Part shown: positions 6,851-23,796 of the stretch, in pieces
Layout of the letters: every line of letters starts with the position of its first letter
Position numbering within the stretch: the stretch's first letter is position 1
Source: a virus
Length of the DNA stretch: 25,730 nt
Virus record (IMG/VR): IMGVR_UViG_3300030106_006042
Coordinates: 1,887 to 27,616 of that record
Strand: one strand, 5' to 3'
Notes under the pieces: model-generated
Told to the model about the DNA's origin: nothing
Seen by the model: only the letters and a program-made list of their open reading frames with translations
Database searches by the model: none
Translations under genes and position numbers: made by a program

Positions 6851-8503
6851 TTAAACGTAGTTAACATCAGCAACGATTACCTTACCGTAGAACTCTGGTC
6901 TCACGATTTTCTTAGCGTAACGTGTCATTACACCTTTACGTGGAGTAAAGTTCTTAGGGTCGTATACAAGAGGAGTCATAATTAACGGTACATATGGAGC
7001 GTAGACCGCACCTGTTTCGAGGAAGTTACTTCCACGAAAACCTACCAAGATTACATTCTCGAACTGATAAGGGTTCTTATAGACTGTAAATCTATTGTTA
7101 ATTAAACCTGCCTTCTGTACACCCATAGCATACTGAGTCTTTGTAGAATCAGCATCACTATCTGAACTATATCCTGGTATTGACTCAAGGATTGTAGCGA
7201 CTTCAGGACTTACTACGATGAAGTTTGCACCACCACGTAGGGTCTTCTGATGAATCGCATTAGATACGGACTGTATCTTGTTACCTAGAGTTTGAAACCA
7301 CTCACCCTTTGAGTAAGCGTTTGATGCACCAGATGATTCAGCAAAAAGAGTACTTACAGGATCGTATTCGTATCCGACTCTTGTGCTCCAACGTTCTGTC
7401 TTCGCATTAGCGTTTAGATAAAGCATGTCTAGGATTTCTAAGTCGATTTCCATAGAAACGTACTCACTAAGTAGTGAAGTAAGTTCTGCTTCAGCGTCTA
7501 CACTATGGTAAGCATTAAGGTCTTGAGCAAGCTCAGGAGTCCATACTGCTTTTAACTTACGTGTTTTCGCAACGATAGCGATTGAACGCATTGATATATC
7601 GATTTCTGGTATATCAATATCGGTTTCAGGATTTGCACTAACACCAGCTGATGAAGCTTCAAAGTCACCACGAGTGATGTCTGTTGGTTGCTTATGAAAC
7701 AGTACTGATGCTGTCTGACCTGCGGATATACTTCCTTCGTCTACGATAAATCGTATGTGAGAAGCACCTGCATCAGATGGATTAACTTCGTTTCCGTCCG
7801 AACCATCTAATACTTTGTTATATGCAGGATAGTAAGCAGTCAAAGCGGATGAAGCTGTTATTTCAAAAGCTTTGATACCTTCTAAATCAGGATTTGTAAG
7901 TGTTGATATTGGAATATCATAGAATTTAAGATTATCCAATGAGCTAGATAAATCTGGCTCAAAATCAACATCGGCCCAACTAACTGAACCGGTTAAGGCT
8001 GCTACAGCCTGAGCAGTACCAGTGAAGTCATTGATAGAATATCCTGACCTACCAGCTCCGTAGAGACCACCGCTTGGGTCAGCATCTGAACCAGAAGTAA
8101 CACCGAACACTTGTTCACCGTCACTAAATCCAGCCTGAGCTGATCCGTATTTAAAATCAAGATAGAAAATAAGTCCACTTGGTAGATTCATAGGTTGAAC
8201 ACTTACGAACTCCTGAGCTGCTAACTCACCAAAGATTTTTCTAACCAATGGGAGTGCAACACCAGACCATTCTTCAGAGTTAGCGGAAGTACCTGTGTGA
8301 CTAGATTCGTCGATTAACTGACGAGCCTGGTTTTCAAGAAGTACTGCCATACCACTTACTTTTTGCTCTGTGCTCAAACCTTCTAACAAGCCAGTGGGTT
8401 CCCACTTCTTGATTAAACCACGAGTTTCCTCTTGTCGCTGCTTGTACGGATTATATCCATCCATCAATTTCTCGACTGCTCCGAGGTTTTTATGATTTGA
8501 CAT
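6851..8503 (-). CDS. gp23: Major capsid protein gp23
   Basis: A 550-residue protein (T4 gp23 is 521). The prodomain matches T4: KKWEPTGLLEGLSTEQK and VLLENQARQLIDE parallel T4 KWKPLLEGEGLPE and IFENQ. The conserved mature N-domain signature VSVQPMNLPSGLIFYLDFKYG-type sequence (near residue 100) corresponds to T4 VQPMNSPTGQVFALRAVYG. LIDE ends at residue 66, almost exactly where T4 gp23 is cut (after residue 65), so mature protein probably begins at S67. The HK97-fold body includes the E-loop/P-domain region and a C-terminal segment ending FYGKVIVADVNYV. GGAG sits eight bases before the ATG; a strong terminator follows. It forms the hexamers of the head shell. Confidence 0.95.
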   Translation of the reverse strand: MSNHKNLGAVEKLMDGYNPYKQRQEETRGLIKKWEPTGLLEGLSTEQKVSGMAVLLENQARQLIDESSHTGTSANSEEWSGVALPLVRKIFGELAAQEFVSVQPMNLPSGLIFYLDFKYGSAQAGFSDGEQVFGVTSGSDADPSGGLYGAGRSGYSINDFTGTAQAVAALTGSVSWADVDFEPDLSSSLDNLKFYDIPISTLTNPDLEGIKAFEITASSALTAYYPAYNKVLDGSDGNEVNPSDAGASHIRFIVDEGSISAGQTASVLFHKQPTDITRGDFEASSAGVSANPETDIDIPEIDISMRSIAIVAKTRKLKAVWTPELAQDLNAYHSVDAEAELTSLLSEYVSMEIDLEILDMLYLNANAKTERWSTRVGYEYDPVSTLFAESSGASNAYSKGEWFQTLGNKIQSVSNAIHQKTLRGGANFIVVSPEVATILESIPGYSSDSDADSTKTQYAMGVQKAGLINNRFTVYKNPYQFENVILVGFRGSNFLETGAVYAPYVPLIMTPLVYDPKNFTPRKGVMTRYAKKIVRPEFYGKVIVADVNYV

Positions 8504-8523: not shown

Positions 8524-9699
8524 TTAAAGAATACCAGCCAACTTCTTAAATCTGTCTCTCAACTCATGTCCTTCAGAAATTACTTCCTGTTTTTCAGACT
8601 TAGTAGAGGCTACAGGCTTAGAAGCCGAACCTTTTGATTCTTTAATTTCAGTTTTTTTGTTATTTCCAAAAGACTCAGCTAAAGTAGAGTAAACTAATTT
8701 AACTTCACGAAGGTTATGTGCTCTATCAAAAGTTTCCACAACTTTCATCTTCTGGTCATTATTTAGACCAAAAGAACGAAATAGTTTATTTGTGAAAAGT
8801 AGTTTTGCGTTGAGCAAATTCACTTCGTTGAGTTTGGAACGTAGATATTTTACGACATTGCGATGCTCATCCAAGTCAGACTGCAATTTGGATACTTCAT
8901 TTTTCTCCTCTTCATCGTCATCCTCTTCTGTTAATGCTTTTACAATCTCTTCAAGGTCAATATCTTCTTCGACTTCGTCCTCATCTTCATGAGCTCCTTC
9001 GTTAACAGATTCGAATTTAGCTGAACCGGCTTTACCAATATCAGTTGAATCACCAGCTTTTTTATCGAGTTTGTTATCACCAGAACCTATGTTAGAAGAT
9101 ACATCGTTTTCATCAAGGTCTTCATTCTTTTCATCATCATCATCGTCTTCATGTTCGCCTTCTTCGATTTCATCGACTTCATTGACATCTTCCTCTTCAA
9201 GTTCTTTCAAGATTTCATCAAGGTCAAGGTCTTCATCCATATCATCTTCGTCTTTATCACCGTGCATACCCTCTTCAGGATCTTCGTCGTCTTCTTTTTC
9301 AGACACGACAGGTGCATATTTGACTCCATCAATTTCGATAATACCTTCATCGACATCTTCTTCATCGTCTTTTTCATGAGCTCTCTCTTCTACATCATCA
9401 TCTTCTTTCTCATGTGCTCTTTCTTCAACATCATCATCTTCTTTTTCATGAGCTCTTTCTTCGACATCGTCACCTTCTTCGCTTCTCTCTTCACCTTCTT
9501 CGCCTCTCATTGAACCTTCTTCTTCACGGTCATCCTCGTGTTCACCTTCGTCAACTTCGATTTCCGATTGAATTTTCTTTGAAAGCATAGATTGTAGTCT
9601 AGGAGTGAAAGCCTCTTCGAGTGCAATTTTAGCATTTTCTAAAGCAGTTTCACGAACAGCTTTAGCATCAGCAATGGCATCTTTTAAAAGATCATCCAT
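8524..9699 (-). CDS. gp22: Prohead core scaffolding protein gp22-like
   Basis: A 391-residue protein directly before the capsid gene, as in T4. It has a short helical N-terminus (MDDLLKDAIADAKAVRETAL), a very acidic Asp/Glu middle (about residues 45-275) with tandem repeats, and a C-terminal coiled coil (LQSDLDEHRNVVKYLRSKLN, LLNAKLLFTNKLFRSFGL) ending DRFKKLAGIL. The C-terminal part is the recognisable gp22-type portion in marine T4-like phages. Candidate prohead-protease sites include SVNE/G and VISE/G near the C-terminus, fitting the known destruction of gp22 during maturation. T4 gp22 is shorter (269 residues); the extra length is the acidic region. The SD GGAG lies eight bases before ATG, and the leader is long and structured. 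Confidence 0.88.
   Translation of the reverse strand: MDDLLKDAIADAKAVRETALENAKIALEEAFTPRLQSMLSKKIQSEIEVDEGEHEDDREEEGSMRGEEGEERSEEGDDVEERAHEKEDDDVEERAHEKEDDDVEERAHEKDDEEDVDEGIIEIDGVKYAPVVSEKEDDEDPEEGMHGDKDEDDMDEDLDLDEILKELEEEDVNEVDEIEEGEHEDDDDDEKNEDLDENDVSSNIGSGDNKLDKKAGDSTDIGKAGSAKFESVNEGAHEDEDEVEEDIDLEEIVKALTEEDDDEEEKNEVSKLQSDLDEHRNVVKYLRSKLNEVNLLNAKLLFTNKLFRSFGLNNDQKMKVVETFDRAHNLREVKLVYSTLAESFGNNKKTEIKESKGSASKPVASTKSEKQEVISEGHELRDRFKKLAGIL
9365..9472 (-). repeat. Three tandem 36-bp repeats in the scaffold gene
   Basis: Units at 9365-9400, 9401-9436 and 9437-9472 encode three copies of a 12-residue acidic unit (DDVEERAHEKED-like). Copies differ at a few third positions. Related single motifs (EGEHEDD, EGAHEDE) occur elsewhere in the same acidic region. 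The array is in frame and part of the gp22 core. Confidence 0.9.
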
Positions 9700-10022: not shown

Positions 10023-10676
10023 CTAATCAGTCTCGTTGTCTGCTTTATAGTTTTTATCAACATAGTTGAAGAATTTTTTCTTTTCATCATCATCTAAATC
10101 CGCTGGAGATTTAATACCAAACTTTTTCATCGCCTTTTGAAAAAACTCTTCATATGCATTCTCTTCAATATCGTAAGTCTCTACATCATCGGAATCATGT
10201 CCGTAGACGTGGGTTTCTCCTATCTCATAGTATCTACCTAGGATGTTACCCATATCTTCATACAGAGCACCTAATCTTTCCTGTAAAGACTTTGACTCTT
10301 GAGCTATCTTGCCAAACTGTTTTGATAAACCTGTCAATTCTTTCATATTACGATTGACCGTAATCTTATCAAACCAATCATCAGTTTCTTGGAGAGTATG
10401 TGATTTAGCCGATTTAGCAATCCAACTCAATTTTTCCGATATTTTAGATATATTTGATTTACCAAATATAGCTTCACCGATTCCGTTGTAGGATGATATT
10501 TCCTTAGTGAGTTGTTTTACATCAACCTTTTCTTCATCAATATCACCATACTTTTCTTTTACCATGTTGGATAAACTCATCTCTTCACCAAAGGCGTTTC
10601 TAGAGACTACACCACCCATCATAGTACCAGTAAAGTTTTCTTTCAGTAAATCCTTTAACTTGATTTTTTTAGACAT
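10023..10676 (-). CDS. Putative prohead core/internal protein (217 aa)
   Basis: This 217-residue helical, charged protein starts MSKKIKLKDLLKENFTG. That short amphipathic head ending in 'LLKE' resembles the capsid-targeting leaders of T4 internal proteins. The middle is predicted coiled-coil (MKELTGLSKQFGKIAQESKS). The C-terminus is FFQKAMKKFGIKSPADLDDD and FFNYVDKNYK, a segment I associate with small core-type proteins of marine T4-like phages. SD AGAGG is eight bases before the ATG. It lies between gp21 and gp22, where T4 has nothing. Role as a scaffold-associated or packaged protein is inferred. Confidence 0.8.
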   Translation of the reverse strand: MSKKIKLKDLLKENFTGTMMGGVVSRNAFGEEMSLSNMVKEKYGDIDEEKVDVKQLTKEISSYNGIGEAIFGKSNISKISEKLSWIAKSAKSHTLQETDDWFDKITVNRNMKELTGLSKQFGKIAQESKSLQERLGALYEDMGNILGRYYEIGETHVYGHDSDDVETYDIEENAYEEFFQKAMKKFGIKSPADLDDDEKKKFFNYVDKNYKADNETD

Positions 10677-10694
10677 AATATGTCCTCTTATTTA

Positions 10695-11198
10695 TTACGC
10701 GAGTGTTACAGATGAATCAACATCGTATATGATATCAGCAAACCAATTTGTTCCATCAGACCAGACCTCTGCCATATCACCAGCTGTTGAGACGTTATGT
10801 ACAAAGGTAATCAAATCTACAGCACTAACTACATTAGCACCCTCGTCGTTACCATGACCTCTAATATTACCAATGATAAGGTTAGCTGCAGTTGAACCAT
10901 CAGAAGTAGATGTTATCGTAATCGCTGCATTTGAATTATTTGCGATACTTGGTGCTGCTAAAATAAATTTGTACCAAGCTCCTCTTTTTGGTGTTGGTAG
11001 ATTGACGTTAAATCCTGTACCTACCGCTTGTTGTGTACCGACCACACCTAAAATAATGTAACCAGACTCATGCACTGATAAATTCTTAGCAGCATTTACG
11101 TTTGTCACGTTACAGAAATTAAGTTGGTCACACATTGAATCAAAATACCCTCCGTTTGTATTTTTCAAAGGGTTTTTTAAACTTTGTCCTATTTGCAT
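10695..11198 (-). CDS. Putative virion structural protein (167 aa)
   Basis: A 167-residue protein with SD TAGGAGAG before ATG and a 63-base gap upstream carrying a promoter-like octamer. Composition is Asn/Thr/Val/Gly-rich and beta-type. Landmarks include HESGYIILGVVG, PKRGAWYKFILAAPSIAN, ITSTSDGSTAANLIIGNIRG and a C-terminal MAEVWSDGTNWFADIIYDVD. The ending 'W-x-DGTNW' is common in phage beta-sandwich surface or decoration-type proteins. No catalytic motif, signal peptide or membrane segment is visible. Position among head genes suggests a head component, perhaps a decoration protein, but this is not demonstrated. Confidence 0.8.
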   Translation of the reverse strand: MQIGQSLKNPLKNTNGGYFDSMCDQLNFCNVTNVNAAKNLSVHESGYIILGVVGTQQAVGTGFNVNLPTPKRGAWYKFILAAPSIANNSNAAITITSTSDGSTAANLIIGNIRGHGNDEGANVVSAVDLITFVHNVSTAGDMAEVWSDGTNWFADIIYDVDSSVTLA

Positions 11199-11236
11199 GT
11201 TTACTCTCCTAGATTATTTGTTATGTTTTTATACCT

Positions 11237-11244
11237 ATAAATAT
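11237..11244 (-). promoter_or_regulatory. Candidate late promoter octamer before 167-aa gene
   Basis: ATATTTAT on the minus strand, 38 bases before the ATG at 11198, in a 63-base AT-rich gap. It is followed by AGGTATAAAA. The 16 bases 11231-11246 recur exactly at 2512-2527. Confidence 0.4.
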
Positions 11245-11261
11245 AAGTCATTATAATTTTT

Positions 11262-12281
11262 CTACAAACTAGTATACATACCAGTATGTTTGGTGAACAT
11301 TCCACGAAGGTCGTCTGCGTAAACTCCCTTGACTTTAGCTTTTACCTTTACACCCCTCACGGATACAAAGTTAAAATACATATCGTACAAATCTTTACCT
11401 CTATCTAAATCTATTCTTACGTAGTTTACATTTTTAGCATTTCTACCAATCTTGAAACCCATTCCCTTTGGGCCTACTACGAAATTCTTTGCACCGGTCA
11501 TAGCGATAAAACGATTACCACCCAACTGTTTTAAGGTCTCACCTGCCTGTCTCTTATCCATTCTTTCATTTACGGATTCATTGACATCGCTCTTACCAGT
11601 TAGTTTGTATCCTAATTGTTCAGCGTTTTCTTTTCTAGCTTTTTCGAATTTTTTCTTTTTAGAACCTTTGAGTTCACCACCAAAACCTTCCAATCCATCG
11701 TAATCCTGATAGATACCTCTACCTTTTAATTTGATTTTTTTTACTTTTTTTTTTAAACGAGTGGCTTTATTTTTCTCAATTTTTTTCAATAATCTATTAC
11801 TTATACTTTCAGCTTGACCACCGAACTGTCTTGCGTAGAAACTAGCGTCCGCTTTTGATTGTTTCTTCGGTTCGGTTTTTTTCTTTTTTGCTTTGGATAG
11901 CATCGCCTTAGCTCTATCCTTAATTCTATCTATTATACCTTTTGCCTTTTTATGCTGAGGATGACTTTTATTCGATAGTGCGGTTGCGACTTTTACCTTT
12001 TTACCACCACCTGTTGAGAGTTCTTTTTCTTTAGCCCTTGCCATAGCAGCTCTGACACCAGCAGCGATGGCAGCAGGATTTTCGAAAAGTTTATTTTCAC
12101 TTTTAACTCTTGTTGGTAATCCTTTATGTTTCGTCGAAGCATATTTCTTCACGTCTTTCCCTTTCATACTCTTTGCGGCGTCTCGTGCTTTCTTTGAAAA
12201 TTTTGATGCCGGTGCATCTCCTTTTTGTATCGCCCTAACGATACCCATAAACTTTTGTTGTTTTTTCGATAACGAGGGCAT
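11262..12281 (-). CDS. Modular basic protein: DUF3008 N-terminus plus conserved phage C-terminal domain
   Basis: This 339-residue protein has three parts. Residues 1-60 (MPSLSKKQQKFMGIVRAIQK, SKKARDAAKSMKGKDVKKYA, STKHKGLP) match the small phage DUF3008 family. The Lys-rich middle (about 65-230) is nucleic-acid-binding in character. The C-terminal ~100 residues (LGGNRFIAMTGAKNFVVG, FKIGRNAKNVNYVRIDL, GMFTKHTGMYTSL) form a domain that often stands alone in other phages. The linkers carry (L/V)xE sites: KLFE/NPA near residue 67 and DVNE/SVNE/R before the C-terminal domain. ATG overlaps the previous stop as TAATG. I infer a head-core protein processed by gp21, with the basic part possibly contacting DNA. 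Confidence 0.85.
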   Translation of the reverse strand: MPSLSKKQQKFMGIVRAIQKGDAPASKFSKKARDAAKSMKGKDVKKYASTKHKGLPTRVKSENKLFENPAAIAAGVRAAMARAKEKELSTGGGKKVKVATALSNKSHPQHKKAKGIIDRIKDRAKAMLSKAKKKKTEPKKQSKADASFYARQFGGQAESISNRLLKKIEKNKATRLKKKVKKIKLKGRGIYQDYDGLEGFGGELKGSKKKKFEKARKENAEQLGYKLTGKSDVNESVNERMDKRQAGETLKQLGGNRFIAMTGAKNFVVGPKGMGFKIGRNAKNVNYVRIDLDRGKDLYDMYFNFVSVRGVKVKAKVKGVYADDLRGMFTKHTGMYTSL

Positions 12282-12589
12282 TATTTTAATTTTTTAGTTA
12301 GTTTAGCAGCTTCTCTCATGAAGTTGGTAACATTATCTTTATATAATTTTTTGAGTTGTTTTGCAATCTCTCTATTCTCTGGTCTGGCGTCACGTAAGAA
12401 AGCTTGTTCCAATTTAAACATCTTATCTCTTAATCCACCTTCTTGTTTCGCTAAAGACTGAAACTTCTTCTTAGCCCTTGCTTTATCCTCTATGGATTCG
12501 TTGACCGAGCAACAATCACCACCACACTCACAATTTGACTTACGAAACTCGTGCCAAGTGTCCATGACTTTTCGATTGAGGTAACTCAT
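12281..12589 (-). CDS. Small Cys-rich core protein (102 aa)
   Basis: A 102-residue protein joined to its neighbours by TAATG overlaps at both ends. Near the N-terminus is a dense cysteine cluster, CECGGDCC (C20, C22, C26, C27), directly followed by SVNES, a candidate prohead-protease site. The remaining ~70 residues are basic and helical (KKKFQSLAKQEGGLRDKMFK to the Lys-rich end KLTKKLK). A metal or disulphide role for the cysteines is possible, but no family is recognised. A GAGGGGA SD inside the end of the protease gene precedes ATG. It is co-translated with gp21 and the modular basic protein, suggesting a prohead function. Confidence 0.8.
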   Translation of the reverse strand: MSYLNRKVMDTWHEFRKSNCECGGDCCSVNESIEDKARAKKKFQSLAKQEGGLRDKMFKLEQAFLRDARPENREIAKQLKKLYKDNVTNFMREAAKLTKKLK

Positions 12590-13200
12590 TAGCTTCCCCT
12601 CATAATGTCGTTGATTACTGATTCAACTTTACAGTAATCACCACATGTCCTACCGACTATCTTAGACTCATTTATTGATTCATTGGTTGGATGTAAGAAA
12701 GCTCCGTGTGTTGATGGGTTAGAAACGAAATCAAACGCTATAAGTTCGAAGTCAGGTTGTACCTCTTGTGCTTCACCCTCGTTAACTGATTCAACCGAAC
12801 CCATTCCACGAGAACTGATACCTAACTTGATACCACTTTTGAATAATTCTTTCAATATATTACCACTAGGTGTACCTAAAACTTCGACCGTACCCATTAA
12901 GTTATCGCCTTCAAAGTGCATTTCCTTGACATTATGAGAAACATTTTGTAAATTAACGACAGACGATTCAGGATGGTCTAGCTCACCCATGGCTCTTCTT
13001 TGATTTATAAATTCATCTGTGTATTTTTTAGCTTCTCTTACTAGTATTTCTTTTGGATAGATTCTACCGTTTTGATTCTTAGACTCGGCACGTTGTAAAA
13101 CACCCTTAACAATTAACTTACCATTGTTACCCTTCATGGATTCGTTAATTTGCTCTGGTTTTATTTCAAACGGCAAATAATCTACTATTAATTGTTTCAT
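12589..13200 (-). CDS. gp21: Prohead core protease gp21
   Basis: A 203-residue serine protease of the T4 gp21 type (herpesvirus-assemblin-like fold). H76 lies in MGELDHPESS and the nucleophile in GISSRGMGS (S129/S130), with the following FDFVSNPS typical of the family. T4 gp21 has 212 residues. It degrades the core and trims gp23 after (L/I)xE. Its own sequence holds candidate sites at INE20/S21, VNE141/G142 and TNE174/SINE177/S178, consistent with the self-processing known for T4. A C-terminal tail follows, with CGDYC. The ATG overlaps the previous gene as ATGA, with GGGAAGAG as SD. It lies between portal and scaffold as in T4. Confidence 0.93.
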   Translation of the reverse strand: MKQLIVDYLPFEIKPEQINESMKGNNGKLIVKGVLQRAESKNQNGRIYPKEILVREAKKYTDEFINQRRAMGELDHPESSVVNLQNVSHNVKEMHFEGDNLMGTVEVLGTPSGNILKELFKSGIKLGISSRGMGSVESVNEGEAQEVQPDFELIAFDFVSNPSTHGAFLHPTNESINESKIVGRTCGDYCKVESVINDIMRGS

Positions 13201-13385
13201 TTATCTCTTCCCATCATGATTTCAGTTCTAAGACTTTCCAACATCTCTATCCATTGTCCAAGTCTTTTCAACATATAATTCTTGTCCACATCTTTCTTCT
13301 GTATTTCGACTTGCCATCGTTTCAACAGAGTCGATATACTGAACAAAGTATCCATATAGGACTTCTTGTTCTCTTGAAATGGCAT
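13197..13385 (-). CDS. Small helical protein in the gp67/gp68 slot (62 aa)
   Basis: This 62-residue protein is mostly helical (SYMDTLFSISTLLKRWQVEI, YMLKRLGQWIEMLESLRTEI) and unlike anything I can name. It lies eight bases after the upstream stop and overlaps the gp21 start by four bases (ATGA). T4 has the small core genes 67 and 68 between portal and protease, so a core role is plausible by position alone. SD before the first ATG is weak. The second Met (nt 13355), with AAGAAG about six bases upstream, is an alternative start. Confidence 0.7.
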   Translation of the reverse strand: MPFQENKKSYMDTLFSISTLLKRWQVEIQKKDVDKNYMLKRLGQWIEMLESLRTEIMMGRDK

Positions 13386-13393
13386 ATCAATAC

Positions 13394-13831
13394 TTACTGT
13401 AATTGACCGACCTTGTTCGCTAGTTTTACTAACCTTTCACTAACTCTACGTAACGCCTTATGGGTATTTTTCCAATATGACCTTGAATCTACATTCAATT
13501 CATTTTTCAAACGAACGTTCATTTTGACTAATTTATCTAATTCATTCAGGCTATCTCTGATTTCTCTCATCGACTTACCAATTTTTTGTTTTGGTGTCAT
13601 TGATTCATCATTACGATATTCATGATATTTTCCTTCATGAACTTTTGTATACCCACCTGCCTGTGCAATTTTTTTCTTTTTCTCTTTATCTTTTTTACGC
13701 CCACCGTAAAAAGCATAAGGAGTTCTAGGTGGGCCTTCACCACCATCGAGATTACCCGTAACAGATACCTCTTCCAATTCTTGTCTGATTAACTCTCTGA
13801 TTATCTCTTTGAGTTTATCCTTTGTGGACAT
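13394..13831 (-). CDS. Putative prohead core protein (145 aa)
   Basis: I chose the ATG at 13831 (MSTKDKLKEIIRELIRQEL) over the upstream one at 13855, because AAGGAG stands eight bases before it. It overlaps the previous gene by 17 bases. The protein has a helical head, then a VSVTGNLDGGEGPPRTPYAF stretch of the kind seen after the N-terminal helix in marine phage core proteins, a very basic patch (GGRKKDKEKKKK), and a C-terminal coiled coil. Two candidate gp21 sites (KVHE/GK and RNDE/SM) lie between the basic patch and the coil. It occupies the T4 gene 67/68 region. A core function is inferred. Confidence 0.8.
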   Translation of the reverse strand: MSTKDKLKEIIRELIRQELEEVSVTGNLDGGEGPPRTPYAFYGGRKKDKEKKKKIAQAGGYTKVHEGKYHEYRNDESMTPKQKIGKSMREIRDSLNELDKLVKMNVRLKNELNVDSRSYWKNTHKALRRVSERLVKLANKVGQLQ

Positions 13832-14684
13832 TCTTAATCTCCTTAATAAGTTCATAATATCTCATCAAAGATAAAACTTGCTTTTCGTTGACAATTTTAC
13901 CTTTTGTCAAATTTTCTATTTGATTGATTGCTTCTGTCAATTTGATACTTGTAATTTTATCATCTACCCTAGGTAACTCTTTTTTCAATACTGATTTTAT
14001 ACGAGTAACCTCTTTATCAACATATTCTCTTAATGAATTAGTGTTACTGATATTATTAATATAATTCTTAAGTAGTTTCTTTTGGGATTCGTCAAGTGAT
14101 TTGTACTTTTTGTTGAATTTATCTACTAGTATTTCATAAGCTAGTAATCTTAAATCCTTATCTTGTTTACTATATTCAGCGATTACCTTTTGTTTTATTT
14201 TTTCATCATCTATCTTTTTGTGAGTTATATGTTCCAAAACAGTAAATTTAGAATTGACCAATTGGTCAGCTTTAAATTTCTCATCAGTAGTCTCGGATTG
14301 AAAAATATTATAGATGGATGCTAATAATCTATAGTTAGGTATTCTACCGTTGAAAAAATCTGTAACATTATAATTTTCTTTAATCGAACTAATCAAATTA
14401 TACTTTTCTCGACGTAGGTCTGAGTTGTTTAGGTTTTGTCTTTGTTTTATAACCACATTTAATAAATCATTAGCTTTGACTTCTGAATTATAATTTTTTT
14501 CTGATAATAACTTATAGAGTTCAAGTTCTTTACCTAACTCCGTCTTTTCATTAAAAAATTTCTTCAATATACCAACTGACTTTGTTGATTTTCCGGCTAA
14601 CACATCTGCTGTGATTTGTCTTGTCAATAATTCAAAAAGAATACCAGTATTCTTAATTTTTGAATGTTTTATTTTTCGAGCCAT
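13815..14684 (-). CDS. Conserved head-region protein after the portal gene (289 aa)
   Basis: A 289-residue Lys/Glu-rich, nearly all-helical protein with no enzyme motif. Its N-terminus (KIKHSKIKNTGILFELLTRQ, then ADVLAGKST and ILKKFFNEKTELGKELELY) is a pattern I associate with an uncharacterised protein that follows the portal gene in marine T4-like phages. The C-terminus ends KGKIVNEKQVLSLMRYYELI. A GGAG sits nine bases before the ATG. The 60-base gap upstream carries a promoter-like octamer, so it may head a block running through gp21. It is probably a core or portal-associated assembly factor; this is inference from position. Confidence 0.82.
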   Translation of the reverse strand: MARKIKHSKIKNTGILFELLTRQITADVLAGKSTKSVGILKKFFNEKTELGKELELYKLLSEKNYNSEVKANDLLNVVIKQRQNLNNSDLRREKYNLISSIKENYNVTDFFNGRIPNYRLLASIYNIFQSETTDEKFKADQLVNSKFTVLEHITHKKIDDEKIKQKVIAEYSKQDKDLRLLAYEILVDKFNKKYKSLDESQKKLLKNYINNISNTNSLREYVDKEVTRIKSVLKKELPRVDDKITSIKLTEAINQIENLTKGKIVNEKQVLSLMRYYELIKEIKNVHKG

Positions 14685-14744: not shown

Positions 14745-16586
14745 TTAGTCATTTGATTTACCATTACTGAAAGAACTTACCTCATTTTGATACTCTTCTT
14801 CTAATTCTGATACCTCAGTTATGATTTCTCTATCTTTTTTGTTAAAATTCATTGATTTCTTAAGGGAATCGTAATGTGATAGGGCTAAAGCCTTACCATA
14901 CTTAGGAGCACCACTACCACCTTTTTTCTTATCGTGAGCTCCCAAAGGGTCTCGTCCTCTCGCTCCACTATCTTTTCCATATTTATTTGGTTCCTTGGGT
15001 CTTCCAGCACCTGGCTGTCCACCCTCTTCTGAACCACCTTCGTCATCCAACTCATGACCGGTTCTTCCCAACGCTAAATCTGACGGTGTACCTTGTGATT
15101 CGCCACTCTCAGCAGGGTCGTTACCCTCTTGTTCAATTTGTTGTCTTCTAAATTTATTTTTATAATCAAATGTAATTTGTTTATCCATCTCTTTAATTTC
15201 GTCCTCTGTGAAGTTGAAGATATTTTTATATATCCATTCGGACGAACATAGCCCGTCTCTTAACATCGAATCAGCCAAAGAAGTTTTATTATTCCAAAGT
15301 TCAATTTTTTCTTGTTCATATATCGTTGATGGGTTAGTCAAAGTCAATTCAAAATTTGTTAATTCTGCATCTTGATATCCTTGTGCGTATAAATGAACTA
15401 TAGCAATCTTTGTTAACTCTGAAAGAGTAATTCTCTGTATCCTTTCTATAGTTCTAGCAAAACGAACATCCTCTGCAGCTAGAGTGGCCTTGGAACCGAT
15501 TTGATCTTCGAACCCTAGGAATGCTTTAGGTATCCTAAGTGCAGATAATAATTTATTCTTCAAATACTCGATATCATCTGTCGCTTCATATGTCAAACCT
15601 GGCAAAGAATCTATACTCGTACCACTATCCCCACCACGGACAGGTAAAAAGAAATCCTCGGTAATATTTTGCATATTGTATTTCAGATTATAATCACCGG
15701 TAGTCTCATCGACAACAGGTGCTTTCTTCATTTTATTGATGACTTGTTGCATGTAATTATCAACTTCCGCTGGTGGTATGTTACCTATGTCGAGTTTAAA
15801 TACTCTTTTTTCGGGTGCTCTCATGATACGATGGATTAACATCGCATCTTCCATCAAGGTCAATTGTTTATATATTTTACGAGCCCCCTCTACTTGTGAT
15901 TTACCATAAGGTAAATAATTAGAGTCCGATAGTAATCTAAAATGTGCGACTTCATAGTTTTCTAATTCTTCTTTGGTGGATGATTGTTCGGCTTTGTATC
16001 TGTGTTCTGCCGTCGCAGCCTCTATTAAAAATTTCACATATTCAGGATTTTCAGGATCTAAACCCTCCAATCTAGACACATCATAAACAGAAAGTGGAAC
16101 AACATTGGTGATACCGTACTTTTCGTCTATCTCTAACTTCAAAAAGAAGTCACCATACTTACACATGTTACGAATCCATGGCCAAAGATTGAATTCAATA
16201 TTAACGATATCGTAGAATAGATTGTGTAGTATTTCTTTAATTTGGTCATTATCTGTCTGAATCTGTAAAACCTCACCGTATTCGGATTTCATTGTTGATT
16301 CATCGGAATATATATCTAGAGCCGATGATATTATAGCATCGGAGTCCATCGCTTCATAATCCTTAAATAGATTCAATCTCATTGATTTTGTCATCAAGGC
16401 ATCGGAGTATCCACTCAGTCCGGCACCTGTGAAAATCTTTTGATATCTATCGACAAGATTACTTTTTGCATAAGCTTGTGTGCGACTAGTATCACTTACC
16501 TTTAATTTTCTACCACCGACGTTTCTAACAACAACATTGGTTGAAAATAATCTTCTTAATCTACTGAATAAACTTGTATCAGCCAT
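14745..16586 (-). CDS. gp20: Portal protein gp20
   Basis: This 613-residue protein (T4 gp20 has 524) follows terL and precedes the core and protease genes. Portal-family features include YEAMDSDAIISSALDIYSDE near residue 75, MRAPEKRVFKLDIGNIPP, the NMQNITEDFFLPVRGGDSGT segment, YLKNKLLSALRIPKAFLGFE and the following QIGSKATLAAEDVRFARTIE. The extra length is mostly a Gly/acidic low-complexity region (about residues 490-560) before a helical C-terminus. It forms the dodecameric ring through which DNA enters and nucleates the prohead. ATG lies four bases after the terL stop, with AGAGG inside the terL end. Confidence 0.94.
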   Translation of the reverse strand: MADTSLFSRLRRLFSTNVVVRNVGGRKLKVSDTSRTQAYAKSNLVDRYQKIFTGAGLSGYSDALMTKSMRLNLFKDYEAMDSDAIISSALDIYSDESTMKSEYGEVLQIQTDNDQIKEILHNLFYDIVNIEFNLWPWIRNMCKYGDFFLKLEIDEKYGITNVVPLSVYDVSRLEGLDPENPEYVKFLIEAATAEHRYKAEQSSTKEELENYEVAHFRLLSDSNYLPYGKSQVEGARKIYKQLTLMEDAMLIHRIMRAPEKRVFKLDIGNIPPAEVDNYMQQVINKMKKAPVVDETTGDYNLKYNMQNITEDFFLPVRGGDSGTSIDSLPGLTYEATDDIEYLKNKLLSALRIPKAFLGFEDQIGSKATLAAEDVRFARTIERIQRITLSELTKIAIVHLYAQGYQDAELTNFELTLTNPSTIYEQEKIELWNNKTSLADSMLRDGLCSSEWIYKNIFNFTEDEIKEMDKQITFDYKNKFRRQQIEQEGNDPAESGESQGTPSDLALGRTGHELDDEGGSEEGGQPGAGRPKEPNKYGKDSGARGRDPLGAHDKKKGGSGAPKYGKALALSHYDSLKKSMNFNKKDREIITEVSELEEEYQNEVSSFSNGKSND

Positions 16587-16589
16587 TTT

Positions 16590-18179
16590 TTACCTCTTAT
16601 CTAGTAACCAATCTAGTGATTCTGGTCTTTTATTGATTTCCATAGTCCAAGAATCATTGATATTTTGTTTAGGAGTGTATACACCTTGATTAGATGTTAT
16701 ACTACTCATAGCTTTCTTCTGTAATTCAATTCCCTCTGCTCTTAATCTTAACGCAGTTTCTCGTATCCATAATCCCATAGCGTAAGACATTACAAGGTCG
16801 TCATTATAGCCGGACATTGCCTCTGCTCTACTACCATTATATATAAATACAAACAACTCATCAATTAGTCGATTCGAACGAACTGTAACTAATCTTTCTC
16901 TGAAAAATTCTTCTAACTTAGCAATCACTAACGGTCTTGTTTTTTGTGTTAATGTGAAACCAGGTACGAGTTGTTTTTCAGCTCTGTTAATTTTATTGTT
17001 GACCTGTCTATGTACATCAACAACTTGTAAATCTTTACTCATATAAAAGAGATTTTGATATTCCCTATCAATACATTGTTGTAGAGTCGCCCAACCTATG
17101 TTGTTATTTTCAATCACAAGTAAAGCGTCATTATATTCGATTGATATGTTAACTAAAAGATTTCCAAAATCTCGTGTGGACATTCTACCTTTATATTCAG
17201 CGACTTGTTCTAAACTTTCTATATCAAGAATGTGAAAAGCAGAATAATCCGATGAATCACCACGACTTACATCTGCACATACTATATAATCCTTTGTATA
17301 GTTTGGTGGCTCCCATATCCAAACATTACTATCAATACCTCTTTTTTCAATCGGTTCTCTTACTTGATTGTTTTTATATTCCTCAAGAATCAGACCATCG
17401 ACGACCGATTGACCAGATGTGATAAAGTCACAATCACATTCTTGTGCTGCTAATGATGGGCCTAACAAAGAATCTTGTTCTTTTCTCCAATCATCTCCTC
17501 TTTCGGGATGAACAGTCCAATGTAGTTTGATAAAATTGAAATCATTCAATCCATCTTCGGAATCCATCCAAGTTCTATGAAACCAATTTCCTACACCGTT
17601 TGGTGTGGATAGTGCTATACATTGACCACCAGTGGATAGTGTCTGTGATGCAGCAGCCCATATTGTATCAATTTTATCTATGAATGCAGCTTCATCGAGA
17701 ACTAACAATGATAATGCCTCTGAACGACCTGCATCCTCTCCACTCGATACAGCCTTTATCTGTGAACCATTTTTATATCTCAGAGATAATTTATTATCCT
17801 CAACACATTTTTGTTTCAACCAAGACGGTAGATTAGCATGCATCACCCTAACTTTTGTGACTAGATTTTTAGCGACTTCTTGTTTAGTAGCAATAACCAA
17901 AATATTTTTATCTTGATGAAATGTCATCATCCACAGAGAATAACCAGCCGTAATCGTTGATATACCTAGTTGTCTTGCTTTTAAAATTATGTTGAAACGG
18001 TGTTGCACGAAGTCTTCAATTGTTTTTTCTTGAAAATCGTAAAGTGCGAAAGGTATCTTACCTTTTATCGGATGCTGTATAAAACAGTATCTTTTCAAAA
18101 AGTAGATAGGGTCTGAGGCGCATTTTACATACTCCTTCCTTATGACATCTTTCAATTGTCCTTTTTGGTTTCTCTTCAT
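16590..18179 (-). CDS. terL: Terminase large subunit gp17
   Basis: A 529-residue packaging motor ATPase and nuclease. The N-terminal ATPase has a Walker A-like KARQLGIST (K67 onward), Walker B LLVLDEAAF (D162, E163) and a coupling-type ALSTPNGVGNWF near residue 190. The C-terminal RNase H-like nuclease has D303 in CADVSRGDSSDYS, E357 in VIENNN and D460/D461 in GYNDDLVMS, the three acidic positions of T4 gp17. T4 gp17 is 610 residues. It is separated by three bases from the gene before it, and SD is weak, suggesting coupling. Directly next is the portal gene. In T4, genes 18 and 19 stand between them. Confidence 0.96.
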   Translation of the reverse strand: MKRNQKGQLKDVIRKEYVKCASDPIYFLKRYCFIQHPIKGKIPFALYDFQEKTIEDFVQHRFNIILKARQLGISTITAGYSLWMMTFHQDKNILVIATKQEVAKNLVTKVRVMHANLPSWLKQKCVEDNKLSLRYKNGSQIKAVSSGEDAGRSEALSLLVLDEAAFIDKIDTIWAAASQTLSTGGQCIALSTPNGVGNWFHRTWMDSEDGLNDFNFIKLHWTVHPERGDDWRKEQDSLLGPSLAAQECDCDFITSGQSVVDGLILEEYKNNQVREPIEKRGIDSNVWIWEPPNYTKDYIVCADVSRGDSSDYSAFHILDIESLEQVAEYKGRMSTRDFGNLLVNISIEYNDALLVIENNNIGWATLQQCIDREYQNLFYMSKDLQVVDVHRQVNNKINRAEKQLVPGFTLTQKTRPLVIAKLEEFFRERLVTVRSNRLIDELFVFIYNGSRAEAMSGYNDDLVMSYAMGLWIRETALRLRAEGIELQKKAMSSITSNQGVYTPKQNINDSWTMEINKRPESLDWLLDKR

Positions 18180-19087: not shown

Positions 19088-22000
19088 CTAAACGAACTTT
19101 AACATTCCTAAAATTTGATTCGCTGGTGCGAAAGCACCAGTATACTTATACAACTTACCCTTGAACACGAAGGTGATACCCTCTGTTGGAACCACCGCCT
19201 TTAAACCACCTATTGCTTTTAATCTATCGAGTTGTGTCTTAAGTGTATTGATGACCTTTGGGTCTTTTGATGTTTTTACTTGTTTTATTGCCTTAGCTAA
19301 ATCTTTTCGAATCTTTTGTGCTGCTTTATCAGGATTCGCTGCTATGAAATCAGATAGATTTGATAATATCTCTGCACCTAACTCGAAAAATAAAACCTCC
19401 CAATCTCTGATATGTTTTTTTTGTAAGCCTTGTAGGTCTGTTTTATCGGTACGAAGCACCCAATTCAAGAAATTTTTATTTGTTATTTCACGTCTTATAT
19501 CAGGTACTCTATAAGATTTATCTAAGAATGCCCATCTTTTTGTTAATTTACCCAAAACATTATTAGGTATATTGTATTTATATTGTTTCGCTGCATTGAA
19601 TATAAACTCTGTCCAATAAGCCTGATGATAATCAGCTAAGGTATCCGTACCTCTCAATGCGAATTGTTTTTGTAATCTATTTAGTTTACCGATAAAGTAT
19701 TTTTGTTTTCTACTAAAATCCTTCACTTGTGGTAATTTAGATATAAACGGTTTTTCAATTTTAAACGCTTTTTGTATATCTTGATTTATCTGTTTAATCA
19801 TACCGGCTAACATCCTAGCACTACCTCTGTCCTCTCCGATTGGGGAACCGTCGGTATCATATTCAATCGTACCGTGAAACTGTAATAGGGCTTTATCATA
19901 AGGTATTACATTTGCAGTCTTCGGATAAATAACCTCTAAAGACATAAATTTTTTACCATCATCAAATATTTTTTCTTTTTGTTTATCACTAAGTTTACCG
20001 ATAGCTTTTTGTAAATCCCTCATGGCGAATACAAATGCTTTTTCTATATCTCCACGACCAGCAAACATCGATTGAATACCACTAATGTCTGGTGCGTTTG
20101 CCCCATGATTCTTTATATGACCTTTATTTCTAGCAGCGATAAGTTTGTTGTTTTTCCAACTTATCATTATGTTCTGACCATCTGTTTTTTCTGTGACTGC
20201 ACCCTCTTTGTCTAATTTACCTTGTAGGGTATTAATAATTAGTGTTTTAAAATCTGAAAATGTAAGATTTTTGTCATCAAAAGGATGGTTCAAATGTCCG
20301 TAAGCTCCACCCTCTAGTAACACACCTTCTTTAAAATTTTTATCATCACTTTTTTGGTCATTTGATTTTATATAGGTTCCATCTTTTGATTTAAAATATA
20401 CGTCGGCGTCATCTTCGTTTTCCTTACCTTTTAATTTATACCTACCGAAACCAATCGAAACATATTTGTGGTCTCTTGACGGTAAAAGTTTTTTCCTTTC
20501 CCCAATCAAGATTTCTACTTCTTCATTTAAATTTATCTCTTTTAGTTTTAATTTTTGTTTTTCTGTATTACCAACATTATCATCACCGATACCTGGTACC
20601 ACTGGAGTCTCCACCTCTACACCGGTATAATTATTACCATCTGGTGTAATACCCATCCATTTTACCAACTCATACCCAATATTATGCAATACAGTTCCTT
20701 CTATATAATTTTTATAGGATTTTATTGGATTGTCTGTACCAAATCTAGTACCATATTTACCAGATTGTTTACGACCATAAGCTACAGCAGGAACTACATT
20801 GTATTTGAGGGTGTAATCATAATCAGGATTTATCGCATGTTTTCCTAAAATATATTGTACGACTTCCCAACCAGTATCACCGTACATATCATCCAACCAT
20901 CTTTTGGATTGATTCTTATAATCATTGAAACCTCTGTAGAAAGTTGGTGGGCCGTCATCTGTTGGGTTTATCGCGGTCAAACTTGCTTCGTTGACTAATT
21001 CTTTAAAATCTGTGTTGATAACGAAACCCTCTATACCCTCGTATAACTTTCTGAATTTATTCGTCATCATGTTATATATACCTTGGTCGAAGTATCCAAA
21101 AACCTTTTTAAAAGATTTTTTTCTTTCCTTATCATCTATTCTTGGGTCACCCAATAAAGACCTCATCTTAGTACCACTCATGTTACCGAATTGTGGTGCA
21201 GTGATAAAATATCCATGTTCTTTATATCCTCGGATGTCCTCTCTACTTTTCTTGTAATCACGAAAATATTTACCACCCCTTAATCTACCAGCATCTTTCT
21301 GTCCAAAAGCATAAACAACCGCGGTGGTTTCAGGATTGAATTTTTTTGTTACGTTATCAGCAACGTATGGTGACCTTTCTTGTATGATTCTATTTTTAGG
21401 TATTCCCATCTTAACCATATGACGTACTTTTTCCTTAAAATTCATTGGGTGTCTAGGGAGTTGTTTGATGTTAGAAGTCGTTATATAAGCCTCATCAACC
21501 TGTTTAGACAACCATTTATATGTTGCAAGATGTCCACTATGAAATGGTTGAAACCTACCACCGAATACACCGATGGTTTTTTTAATTTCTTTTTGTTCAT
21601 TTATCCCTAATTTTTTTCGTAGAGAACCGATTTTTTTAATGAGTTCTTTCTGTTTAGAAGAACCAGGTATCATTTTAAAAGCTTTATTATATAACTTAAT
21701 TAATTCTGTTTTATTATCTTCCCCTATAACATCGTACCCTATGAGAGCCATTGCTAAATCTCTATCAGAATCTCCTCTGAATTTTTTTGCTACTTTTTTA
21801 TAATTCTTTTTAATCATAGCGGATGCTTTCTTCGGAGACTTTCCAACCATTACTAAAATTTTATGTATGGAATCAATTGTTTTTTTATTTTCATCTACTT
21901 TCTTATAACCACTGCCATAAGGAACAGATGTGTTACCACGTTTCTTCATCTTCTTAACCATCTTACGACTTGGTGACGGTATGTTACCACCGTAGAGTTT

Positions 22001-23293
22001 CGCGGCTACAGTCGCGAAATCCTCGTTCTTTTTCTTTGTTTTCTTTTTCATCTTATTGATATAAGCTCGGTAGACAGCTGCTTGTGAAGCCTTACCCATC
22101 TCACGAGCTCTCTGTTCCATTGCAACCGCCGCCTGTATCTTGTGAGCATGACTCCTACCGCTGTTTCTAATCTTACTGACCGAGGCTCTCGCATCTTTGA
22201 CGGTAGCGAACTTTAATCCTTTGATAGTACCTTTCGGATTTTCATCCGTGTATAAATCGGAATGAGATTTGGAACCTCTGTGTTGTCCTTTCTTTCTAGG
22301 AACCCTAGGTGCCTCGTCTACATTTTTCATCGTACGAATCGTCGTTATCTTTTTTCCATTTATCGTTGGCATACCATGGTCGTCTTTTCCAATTGACTTA
22401 ACAACAACTTTTTTATTTTTGAATCTACCGGTAAGGATAGTATCACCAACTTTTATCGGAATATTTATGGATTCGAAAAACTTCGACTGGCCAGGATCTT
22501 TGAATATTTTAGAGTGTTTCTTTTCTCTCCGTATCCATTTTTTAGCTATCTTATTCTTCGGTGGTTTTTTTAGGAATTTATCAATCCCCTTACTGACCAA
22601 CATCTTGAAATGTTTTTTAATCTGAGCATCGGATAACATTTTATTGTTCTGTACAATCATAAAATTAGCACCACCGAATAAACCTTGGAAAGCACCTAGA
22701 TTCGATTGTACATCCTCCCAACTTTTTTTGACAATCGCGTCGGGTACAACCCTATCTCTTTTTTCATTTCGTTCTCTGGCAATCTTCAATGATGTGTTGA
22801 CAAAGACCATGTAGGTATCGTAACCCATATCCATCAGTTCTTTTCTTCTCTTTTTAATCTTTTCGAACTTATGACCAGTACCATCTATGATGACACCCAA
22901 CTTACCCTTGGTATAAAGTCTTAATCTTTCTTGACTCAAATCCTTTGCAAATTTTCTCAATCCACTTGTATCGTAATCAACAGGCTTACCTTGTTTGTCC
23001 ACACCAGTCAAGTCTTGAAATAAATCATCAGGCATATTATCGATATCCGTAGTACCAAAGTATTTTTTCAACAACATCTCTAGTTCAGAGTCTTGATTGA
23101 CCATCTTTAGACCAGTCTTCGATACGTTTATCTTTTCAGGTATACCGAATAACTTCTGTGCTACGAAAGACTTACCGCTACCAGGTCCACCGGCGAGGAA
23201 TATAGCTTTGAAGATGCCAGGATCTCTGACACCCTCTTCTATAATATCTTGTTCTAAAAATGGTTTTGTCAACCATTCGGTCAATTTATTCAT
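19088..23293 (-). CDS. Giant multidomain protein: P-loop kinase-like, HIGH nucleotidyltransferase and ligase-like domains
   Basis: 1401 residues. (1) Residues 30-220: Walker A AGGPGSGKS, GVIIDGTGH near 135, and a RNEKRDRVVPDAI lid-type segment, as in zeta-toxin/T4 polynucleotide-kinase-like P-loop kinases. (2) About 280-320: small beta domain (IKVGDTILTGRFKNKKVVVK). (3) 330-560: basic helical segments. (4) 573-745: cytidylyltransferase-like domain with GVFGGRFQPFHSGH and MSGTKMRS, the two motifs of NMN adenylyltransferase relatives. (5) 770-900: unknown domain. (6) 990-1401: KTDG at 1036-1039, ARNKG at 1054-1058, SLEVI at 1118-1122, EGITF at 1371, KLYK at 1380, matching ligase motifs I, Ia, III, IV and V. 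Linkers carry (I/V/L)xE sites. ATG directly follows the muramidase stop. Activities are predicted only. Confidence 0.9.
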   Translation of the reverse strand: MNKLTEWLTKPFLEQDIIEEGVRDPGIFKAIFLAGGPGSGKSFVAQKLFGIPEKINVSKTGLKMVNQDSELEMLLKKYFGTTDIDNMPDDLFQDLTGVDKQGKPVDYDTSGLRKFAKDLSQERLRLYTKGKLGVIIDGTGHKFEKIKKRRKELMDMGYDTYMVFVNTSLKIARERNEKRDRVVPDAIVKKSWEDVQSNLGAFQGLFGGANFMIVQNNKMLSDAQIKKHFKMLVSKGIDKFLKKPPKNKIAKKWIRREKKHSKIFKDPGQSKFFESINIPIKVGDTILTGRFKNKKVVVKSIGKDDHGMPTINGKKITTIRTMKNVDEAPRVPRKKGQHRGSKSHSDLYTDENPKGTIKGLKFATVKDARASVSKIRNSGRSHAHKIQAAVAMEQRAREMGKASQAAVYRAYINKMKKKTKKKNEDFATVAAKLYGGNIPSPSRKMVKKMKKRGNTSVPYGSGYKKVDENKKTIDSIHKILVMVGKSPKKASAMIKKNYKKVAKKFRGDSDRDLAMALIGYDVIGEDNKTELIKLYNKAFKMIPGSSKQKELIKKIGSLRKKLGINEQKEIKKTIGVFGGRFQPFHSGHLATYKWLSKQVDEAYITTSNIKQLPRHPMNFKEKVRHMVKMGIPKNRIIQERSPYVADNVTKKFNPETTAVVYAFGQKDAGRLRGGKYFRDYKKSREDIRGYKEHGYFITAPQFGNMSGTKMRSLLGDPRIDDKERKKSFKKVFGYFDQGIYNMMTNKFRKLYEGIEGFVINTDFKELVNEASLTAINPTDDGPPTFYRGFNDYKNQSKRWLDDMYGDTGWEVVQYILGKHAINPDYDYTLKYNVVPAVAYGRKQSGKYGTRFGTDNPIKSYKNYIEGTVLHNIGYELVKWMGITPDGNNYTGVEVETPVVPGIGDDNVGNTEKQKLKLKEINLNEEVEILIGERKKLLPSRDHKYVSIGFGRYKLKGKENEDDADVYFKSKDGTYIKSNDQKSDDKNFKEGVLLEGGAYGHLNHPFDDKNLTFSDFKTLIINTLQGKLDKEGAVTEKTDGQNIMISWKNNKLIAARNKGHIKNHGANAPDISGIQSMFAGRGDIEKAFVFAMRDLQKAIGKLSDKQKEKIFDDGKKFMSLEVIYPKTANVIPYDKALLQFHGTIEYDTDGSPIGEDRGSARMLAGMIKQINQDIQKAFKIEKPFISKLPQVKDFSRKQKYFIGKLNRLQKQFALRGTDTLADYHQAYWTEFIFNAAKQYKYNIPNNVLGKLTKRWAFLDKSYRVPDIRREITNKNFLNWVLRTDKTDLQGLQKKHIRDWEVLFFELGAEILSNLSDFIAANPDKAAQKIRKDLAKAIKQVKTSKDPKVINTLKTQLDRLKAIGGLKAVVPTEGITFVFKGKLYKYTGAFAPANQILGMLKFV

Positions 23294-23776: not shown

Positions 23777-23796
23777 TTTATTTCTCCTTTTATTAA

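Follow-up and report, generated by a model that had tools for sequence, protein, structure and literature searches.

The head gene locus

The window analyzed here, the whole stretch of 25,730 nucleotides, is part of a 30.3-kb fragment from an uncultivated T4-like myovirus. All genes of the locus lie on the minus strand (Table 1). As in phages of the T4 type, an S77 prohead protease, which is the predicted cutting enzyme, is encoded among the portal, the scaffold and the major capsid protein (MCP) gp23 (PF03420, PF07230, and PF07068). Three genes separate the portal from the protease and five the protease from the scaffold; in T4, genes 67 and 68 sit between 20 and 21, and nothing sits between 21 and 22. 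A megablast search of the region against isolated phages gave no match. Relatives in culture include Flavobacterium phage immuto, with Flavobacterium sp. LMO8 as host, and Microcystis phage Mel-JY01.

Table 1. Features of the head gene locus and the associated enzyme gene (↓, predicted cut).
Feature	Position	Strand	Basis
Major capsid protein gp23	6851..8503	-	PF07068
Scaffold, acidic, gp22 analogue, 391 aa	8524..9699	-	9 motifs vs 3.2 expected
217-aa core protein, N terminus MSKKIKLKDLLKE↓N	10023..10676	-	N terminus resembles capsid-targeting sequence
339-aa polyprotein	11262..12281	-	PF11450 and phrog_9437 matches
phrog_9437 C-terminal cassette	11265..11564	-	PHROG match; stand-alone relatives in other phages
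Basic module ending KSDVNE↓, net charge +31 in 168 aa	11577..12080	-	Charge computed
DUF3008 leader, 67 aa, ends LFE↓	12081..12281	-	PF11450
102-aa core protein, SVNE↓S	12281..12589	-	Core relatives fused behind DUF3008 leader
S77 prohead protease, gp21 type, 203 aa	12589..13200	-	PF03420, E 3.9e-29; PHROG 207, E 5e-54
145-aa core protein (153 aa from upstream start), KVHE↓G	13394..13855	-	Relatives carry 1-6 modules at junction
Portal gp20	14745..16586	-	PF07230; context gene
1401-aa enzyme polyprotein	19088..23293	-	PF13671 and PF01467
RNA-ligase-like nucleotidyltransferase module of the 1401-aa polyprotein	19091..20311	-	Invariant KxDG; Foldseek

Candidate cleavage sites and their distribution

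A sequence-only reading of this DNA had noticed recurrent cleavage-like peptides in the proteins encoded between positions 10,023 and 14,684. The quoted peptides were all located, and all but NDES are plausible sites. The predicted cuts are at SVNE↓S in the 102-aa protein (12496/12497), LFE↓N (12080/12081) and VNE↓SVNE (11576/11577 and 11564/11565) in the 339-aa protein, VHE↓G in the 145-aa protein (13633/13634), and LLKE↓N in the 217-aa protein (10637/10638). The protease itself carries INE↓S near its N terminus (13140/13141) and TNESINE↓S near its C terminus (12666/12667), with an additional VNE↓G (12777/12778). NDES was dropped because it has no I, L, or V at P3; it forms part of YRND[ED], a core sequence that the 145-aa family conserves.

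The motif agrees with the cutting rule of gp21 in T4, which is L/I-x-E (PMC9026906). Processing of IPIII in T4 is prevented when P1 is Asp (PMC9026906). The MCP propeptide contains the sites LLE41↓G, LLE57↓N, and IDE66↓S, which provide an internal control for the protease rule, and LLE↓G, LLE↓N, and IDE↓S/A are kept in related MCPs. The propeptide is predicted to end in the same type of site, at a length (66 aa) similar to that in T4 (65 aa).

When compared with composition-preserving shuffles, the core cluster contains 14 matches to [ILV]xE[SGAN] where 5.5 are expected (2.5-fold, P 0.0007), and five to [ILV]NE[SG] where 0.21 are expected. In the non-head genes of the window, the corresponding numbers are 15 vs 14.3 (1.05-fold) and 0 vs 0.5. 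The shuffle test revealed no enrichment of patterns with D or K swapped for E, nor of the motif in the portal. The predicted substrates are thus richer in L/I-x-E sites than other genes, and the comparison of head-region proteins with other genes of the phage, which the sequence-only reading had suggested, yielded an excess in the core cluster instead of equal frequencies. The extent of the proposed cluster required revision: the core genes with the motif belong, but the 167-, 62-, and 289-aa proteins encoded in the same interval show no clear enrichment and take no part, and outside the interval both the scaffold (Table 1) and a 1401-aa protein (seven motifs vs 3.0 expected) are enriched. The contrast between head and non-head proteins is repeated in an independent phage, S-SCSM1, which is annotated by virion mass spectrometry (MS). 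Its head and unassigned virion proteins contain 33 motifs (15.9 expected), its tail proteins 76 (76.8 expected), and its other proteins 151 (138.4 expected).

Some motifs, such as VDE601↓A of the adenylyltransferase, sit within folded domains; hence, not every match is a site.

Modular organization of the core proteins

The 339-aa protein consists of a DUF3008 leader (aa 1-67), a basic module (aa 68-235), the peptide SVNE, and a phrog_9437 domain (aa 240-339). In a structure model, pLDDT is below 50 at residues 47-66 and 218-239, and the cuts after E67 and E235 fall at or within these stretches, i.e., at predicted linkers. An alignment used for structure prediction comprised only the window and the viral_contigs loci. 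No paper on DUF3008 was found in the open-licence PMC literature; its relative in S-SCSM1 is a virion protein detected by MS (PMC9602691). The phrog_9437 domain weakly resembles, in its modeled fold, the C-terminal double-wing domain of T4 MotA (1kaf; Z 6.7, rmsd 3.6, 87 residues aligned). This likeness was not adopted and serves as a lead only: although top-ranked, it is not separated from unrelated folds (Z 6.0), and no sequence match to MotA was found.

The architecture becomes apparent only with relatives, here 241 related loci. Relatives of the 339-aa protein range from 197 to 1043 aa and carry other modules, whilst in relatives of the 145-aa protein the insertions are located at the site; both families form strings, up to 1043 aa long, of 1-10 modules. 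The same modules reappear in different genes and in different orders. For example, the end of the basic module corresponds to a cassette (c66, GFGGEL..DVNE) that occurs both in DUF3008 hosts and in a polyprotein with adenylyltransferase and ligase. A tblastn search of isolated phages with two single cassettes (E 1e-5) gave no match, the queries being short.

The breakpoints between families coincide with the sites. Of 435 module ends, 182 lie within five residues of a site vs 38.7 expected, counts that are not independent since the loci share kinship. Decoy motifs with D, K, or Q/N/T were below 1-fold at the same tolerance, and breakpoints in non-head proteins numbered 53 at sites vs 43.9 expected. 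A motif-free search of the breakpoints ranked [ILV]xE and E[SGAN] first (228 vs 102 and 219 vs 99, respectively), and in a small sample of nine independent shared modules, 14 of 26 ends were at sites vs 2.6 expected (P 2.7e-8). The motif is short and was chosen after the sequence had been read, which could have produced an apparent pattern by chance. However, the breakpoint, motif-free, and nine-module tests contradict such an origin, and the result is repeated in independent loci, with a motif found without presetting it, and in S-SCSM1; chance is therefore a very improbable explanation.

The peptides could also be flexible joints that are never cut, or short DNA repeats that promote recombination, given that these A+T-rich genomes frequently encode ESVNE as GAATCnGTAAATGAA. 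However, 67 of the 68 relatives in the 145-aa family keep the junction as [VLI]xE↓G, with P3, P1, and P1′ fixed and P2 free to vary, and this junction has 36 DNA spellings in 67 sequences, indicating that selection acts on the protein. Together with the absence of the decoys from breakpoints, the lack of enrichment in non-head genes, and the identity of the motif with the gp21 rule and with the sites in this phage's own MCP, this makes uncut modules improbable. The virus thus appears, from sequence comparison, to build several head-core proteins as exchangeable modules joined at the sites of its own head protease.

The 1401-aa enzyme polyprotein

The 1401-aa protein, encoded outside the interval considered in the sequence-only reading, belongs to the same module system, which that reading missed. 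It contains a P-loop kinase (aa 31-196), an adenylyl/cytidylyltransferase (aa 576-664), and an RNA-ligase-like domain (aa 995-1401), with IEE20↓G, FFE274↓S, VDE468↓N, LYE752↓G, VNE769↓A, and LLE994↓G between domains. In the ligase-like module, motif I (KxDG) is present, and EKxDGxN is invariant in 21 sequences. RNA and DNA ligases occupied ranks 1-10 in a Foldseek search with this module (E 5e-3 to 4e-2), but VIA Z scores were only 3.3-4.8 (e.g., 2hvr_B, Z 4.5, rmsd 4.8, 110 residues aligned), and comparison with PDB sequences gave only chance matches. Modules for a kinase, an adenylyltransferase, a ligase, and a CCA-adding-type polymerase share the polyprotein architecture. Several cyanophages carry relatives of the adenylyltransferase in their virions (PMC9602691; PMC9146016; PMC10665884).

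Proposed processing and fate of the modules

We propose that several prohead-core genes encode modular polyproteins. Each would begin with a leader, which is either DUF3008 or an N terminus that is short and helical, and continue with one to ten modules; these are small, mostly basic, and linked through [ILV]xE↓[SGAN]. The polyprotein would assemble into the prohead core, and the S77 protease would cut every junction during head maturation. The released modules would remain in the head together with the DNA, and some would be ejected into the host. As every module has its own sites, modules could be gained, lost, and moved between genes without breaking processing. We assign a probability of roughly 0.7 to this reading, in which polyproteins of modular build are loaded into the capsid and the S77 protease divides them into basic internal proteins, some of which are probably injected. 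The sequences themselves show the sites, the restriction of these to head genes, their position at module boundaries, and the exchange of modules between genes, by which processing of the polyproteins is strongly supported. The cutting itself, retention in the virion, and ejection into the host, in contrast, we infer. Accordingly, the earlier suggestion of an expanded set of processed core or injected internal proteins stands in its first part, given the restriction of the motif to head genes, the gp21 rule, the MCP sites, and the fixed P3, P1, and P1′ positions; injection is a matter of inference, and the site-joined cassettes had been overlooked.

Alternatively, the proteins may be cut but sacrificial, like T4 gp22, gp67, and gp68, with the pieces being lost as the head is cleared and the modularity reflecting relaxed constraint on filler. 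The position between portal and MCP, the presence of the same sites in the acidic scaffold, and the fate of T4 core proteins, which are cut into several pieces that mostly exit the head (PMC9026906), would fit. However, the modules are conserved, mostly basic domains (charge +10.3 vs -0.7 per 100 aa), unlike disordered filler, enzyme modules occur in the same architecture, and relatives of two components were detected in virions by MS (PMC9602691). We consider a sacrificial role unlikely, though it is the strongest competitor of the delivery of modules by the capsid.

A canonical T4 capsid-targeting sequence as a general feature was dropped, as such N termini are not enriched among the head virion proteins of S-SCSM1 (3/15 vs 38/234, P 0.46). 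N termini resembling a capsid-targeting propeptide of 10-19 residues are seen in the 217-aa protein and in the nicotinamide-nucleotide adenylyltransferase (NMNAT) of S-SCSM1.

If capsid delivery is correct, the virus could equip its heads with a variable set of helper proteins and perhaps also inject these into the host. In T4, every internal protein is encoded by a gene of its own and carries its own targeting peptide, and many core fragments leave the head instead of staying. Loading of many modules by one leader, with protease sites serving as universal joints, would account for the free exchange of head-delivered proteins in abundant marine phages. It would also suggest a modular delivery design and make it testable where head-delivered NAD and RNA enzymes came from, and cargo could be predicted from sequence by splitting open reading frames at the sites and finding the modules elsewhere. 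A bolder version, in which marine T4-like phages carry interchangeable, site-bounded effector cassettes like beads on a string, co-loaded, freed by the protease, and injected as an early-infection arsenal including an RNA-repair kit, is in our estimation about evenly balanced between true and false. The kit would comprise the kinase, the CCA-adding-type polymerase, the ligase, and the adenylyltransferase.

Related systems

No prior description combining polyproteins with a prohead protease or with domain shuffling was found in the open-licence PMC literature. The closest known system is that of T4, with gp21 (S77) and the internal proteins IPI-III and Alt, which have capsid-targeting sequences. 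It shares the S77 protease beside portal, scaffold, and gp23, the L/I-x-E rule, and short N-terminal propeptides in some proteins, and T4 internal proteins are basic, like the modules described here (PMC9026906). However, no match to the gp67, gp68, or IPI-III families was found with Pfam and PHROG, such proteins being short and fast-diverging, and in T4 each gene specifies a single internal protein with a single N-terminal propeptide, whereas here several exchangeable modules per gene follow a leader, with internal sites between them. In phiKZ and SPN3US, many head proteins are cut after xxE by an S77-like protease and have long propeptides with several sites; these extra sites lie in the removed propeptides, and the available parts of these reports describe no string of exchangeable, site-bounded modules (PMC5694885; PMC10052503).

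Polyvalent proteins, in which 2-15 conflict-related domains are combined in one virion-delivered polypeptide, were likened to polyproteins by Iyer et al. (2017; PMC5512222). They share with the proteins of this virus the presence of several unrelated domains per polypeptide, but their release was proposed to be mediated by embedded peptidase domains, a feature of many though not all of them. Here, the junctions are prohead-protease sites, and no embedded peptidase match was found in ten long polyproteins or in those of the window.

The virion-borne NMNAT/cytidylyltransferases of S-SCSM1, S-SZBM1, S-CREM2, and S-CBWM1 belong to the same nucleotidyltransferase family as the module in the 1401-aa protein. 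In these cyanophages, the enzyme is a stand-alone domain, whereas here it shares one polypeptide with a kinase and an RNA-ligase-like domain. The NMNAT of S-SCSM1 starts with MKSFLQFLKE↓AAES, and its gene adjoins that for the DUF3008 virion protein.

Head Gene Block

The 25.7-kb window lies within a 30.3-kb record of an uncultivated virus. Its head genes are arranged in the order known from T4, and every one of them is encoded on the minus strand. An S21-like gene at a location comparable to that in the window is also found in Microcystis phage Mel-JY01. Within the scaffold, a unit resembling DDDVEERAHEKE is present in tandem copies. The products of two adjacent structural genes are related in their C-terminal regions (SGSxxFGDxxDDTHxxSGS...ISNDTxLSDNS), probably as a result of duplication.

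Features of the window in gene order
Feature	Position	Strand	Remarks
GH108 lysozyme	23294-23818	-	with peptidoglycan-binding domain; adjoins 1401-aa gene
1401-aa protein	19088-23293		kinase and cytidylyltransferase domains; upstream of head genes
TerL	16590-18179	-
Portal gp20	14745-16586	-
289-aa, 145/153-aa and 62-aa proteins		-	between portal and S77 protease
S77 protease	12589-13200	-
102-aa, 339-aa, 167-aa and 217-aa proteins		-	after S77 protease, before S21-like gene
phrog_9437 cassette	11265-11564	-
Ribosomal S21-like protein, 61 aa	9829-10014	-	PF01165, E 3.6e-12; between core genes and scaffold
Acidic scaffold	8524-9699	-
Tandem unit in scaffold	9330-9465	-
gp23	6851-8503	-
Structural gene	3386-5083	-
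Structural gene	2552-3382	-

Predicted Protease Sites in Head Proteins

The prohead protease gp21 of T4 cleaves after L/I-x-E (PMC9026906). Sites were predicted in the form [ILV]xE/[SGAN], where the slash marks the predicted cut. The sequence-only reading had listed cleavage-like peptides in the core-gene cluster at 10023-14684; all of them are present, but NDES does not hold as a site. Relative to composition-preserving shuffles, the cluster contains 14 matches where 5.5 are expected, and the stricter form [ILV]NE[SG] is found five times against an expectation of 0.21. Excesses were also found in the scaffold (9 vs. 3.2) and in the 1401-aa protein (7 vs. 3.0). In contrast, all other genes of the window together are at expectation for both forms (15 vs. 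14.3 and 0 vs. 0.5, respectively), which speaks against an equal motif frequency in non-head genes. When E was replaced by D or K in the same shuffle test, the excess was gone. Some of the motif matches are not sites.

The record of cyanophage S-SCSM1 flags the virion proteins that were detected by mass spectrometry (PMC9602691). In this phage, the motif is found 33 times vs. 15.9 expected in head and unassigned virion proteins, and no excess is seen in tail proteins (76 vs. 76.8) or in other genes (151 vs. 138.4).

The first 66 residues of gp23 of the window contain the sites LLE/G, LLE/N and IDE/S, which are kept in related major capsid proteins. The propeptide of T4 gp23 comprises 65 residues. 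In a structural model of the 339-aa protein, which with a mean pLDDT of 61.6 is a rough guide only, predicted cuts after E67 and E235 are located at or in low-confidence linkers. Possibly, part of the set represents core peptides that are cut and then expelled.

Modular Core Proteins in Related Viruses

The reading of the core proteins as polyproteins, the modules of which are joined at predicted protease sites, was followed in about 240 related loci, akin to each other, which were obtained from three scans of viral contigs. Members of the 339-aa family start with DUF3008, followed by modules that differ between members; they range from 197 to 1043 aa and, if only modules with at least 25 aa are counted, have between 1 and 10 of them. 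In the 145-aa family, the C-terminal core is constant, and longer members carry a module that is inserted precisely at the site. Thus, the junction reads ...GYTKVHE/GKYHEYRND in the window, and ...GYSKVSE/AKFHVKTE...KKLENVNE/GRYHDYRND in a relative with an inserted module (L046). The junction conforms to [VLI]xE/G in 67 of 68 members, with N, T, G, K, S, V, H or R at P2. As its DNA is spelled diversely, with 36 different 12-mers among 67 sequences, the constraint appears to act on the protein.

Exchange of Cassettes

When the proteins were cut at the sites and the resulting fragments were clustered, cassettes emerged, five of which (c82, c118, c138, c139 and c141) are common to DUF3008 hosts and hosts of the 145-aa family, and one (c66) to DUF3008 hosts and the adenylyltransferase-ligase protein. 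Judged by their sequences, cassettes move between genes. Since the splitting itself uses sites, the test was repeated without it, by asking where local BLAST alignments between members of different families end relative to the sites. Of 435 ends, 182 were within 5 residues of a site, vs. 38.7 expected, and D, K and Q/N/T decoys were found at these ends at 0.3 to 0.8-fold. The decoy [KRD]xE[SGAN] was also raised (2.1-fold), probably because sites are often in tandem, e.g., NESVNE. When residue pairs at the ends were ranked with no motif preset, [ILV]xE came first and E[SGAN] second. After reduction to nine shared modules that are independent of each other, sites coincided with 14 of 26 ends, vs. 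2.6 expected (P 2.7e-8). By family class, 572 breakpoints were at sites in head families vs. 283.8 expected, and 53 vs. 43.9 in non-head families.

Possible Functions of the Modules

With a charge of +10.3 per 100 aa vs. -0.7, the modules are strongly basic, like the internal proteins of T4, and no known relatives were found for most of those searched. The 1401-aa protein combines a kinase, an adenylyltransferase and a C-terminal domain with an invariant EKxDGxN; the ten best Foldseek matches to a model of this domain are RNA and DNA ligases, all weak. A 1734-aa relative of the 1401-aa protein (L209:2-5206) contains poly(A) polymerase/CCA-adding-type, adenylyltransferase and ligase-like domains, which suggests a tRNA-repair kit. 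Together, these domains may form a kit for RNA repair or for NAD. In several cyanophages, relatives of the adenylyltransferase are among the virion proteins, although carry-over is possible according to the authors (PMC9602691, PMC10665884, PMC9146016).

The best structural match of the phrog_9437 cassette is the C-terminal DNA-binding domain of T4 MotA, a weak one (Z 6.7). A short acidic module with an EF-hand- or dockerin-like look, LDPVGKEDxDIDNDGxxxxxDxYLxxRR, is found in L085 ORF92, L083 3335-5860 and L080 (family of the 217-aa core protein), and also in Flavobacterium phage immuto and in a virion protein of S-SCSM1 detected by mass spectrometry.
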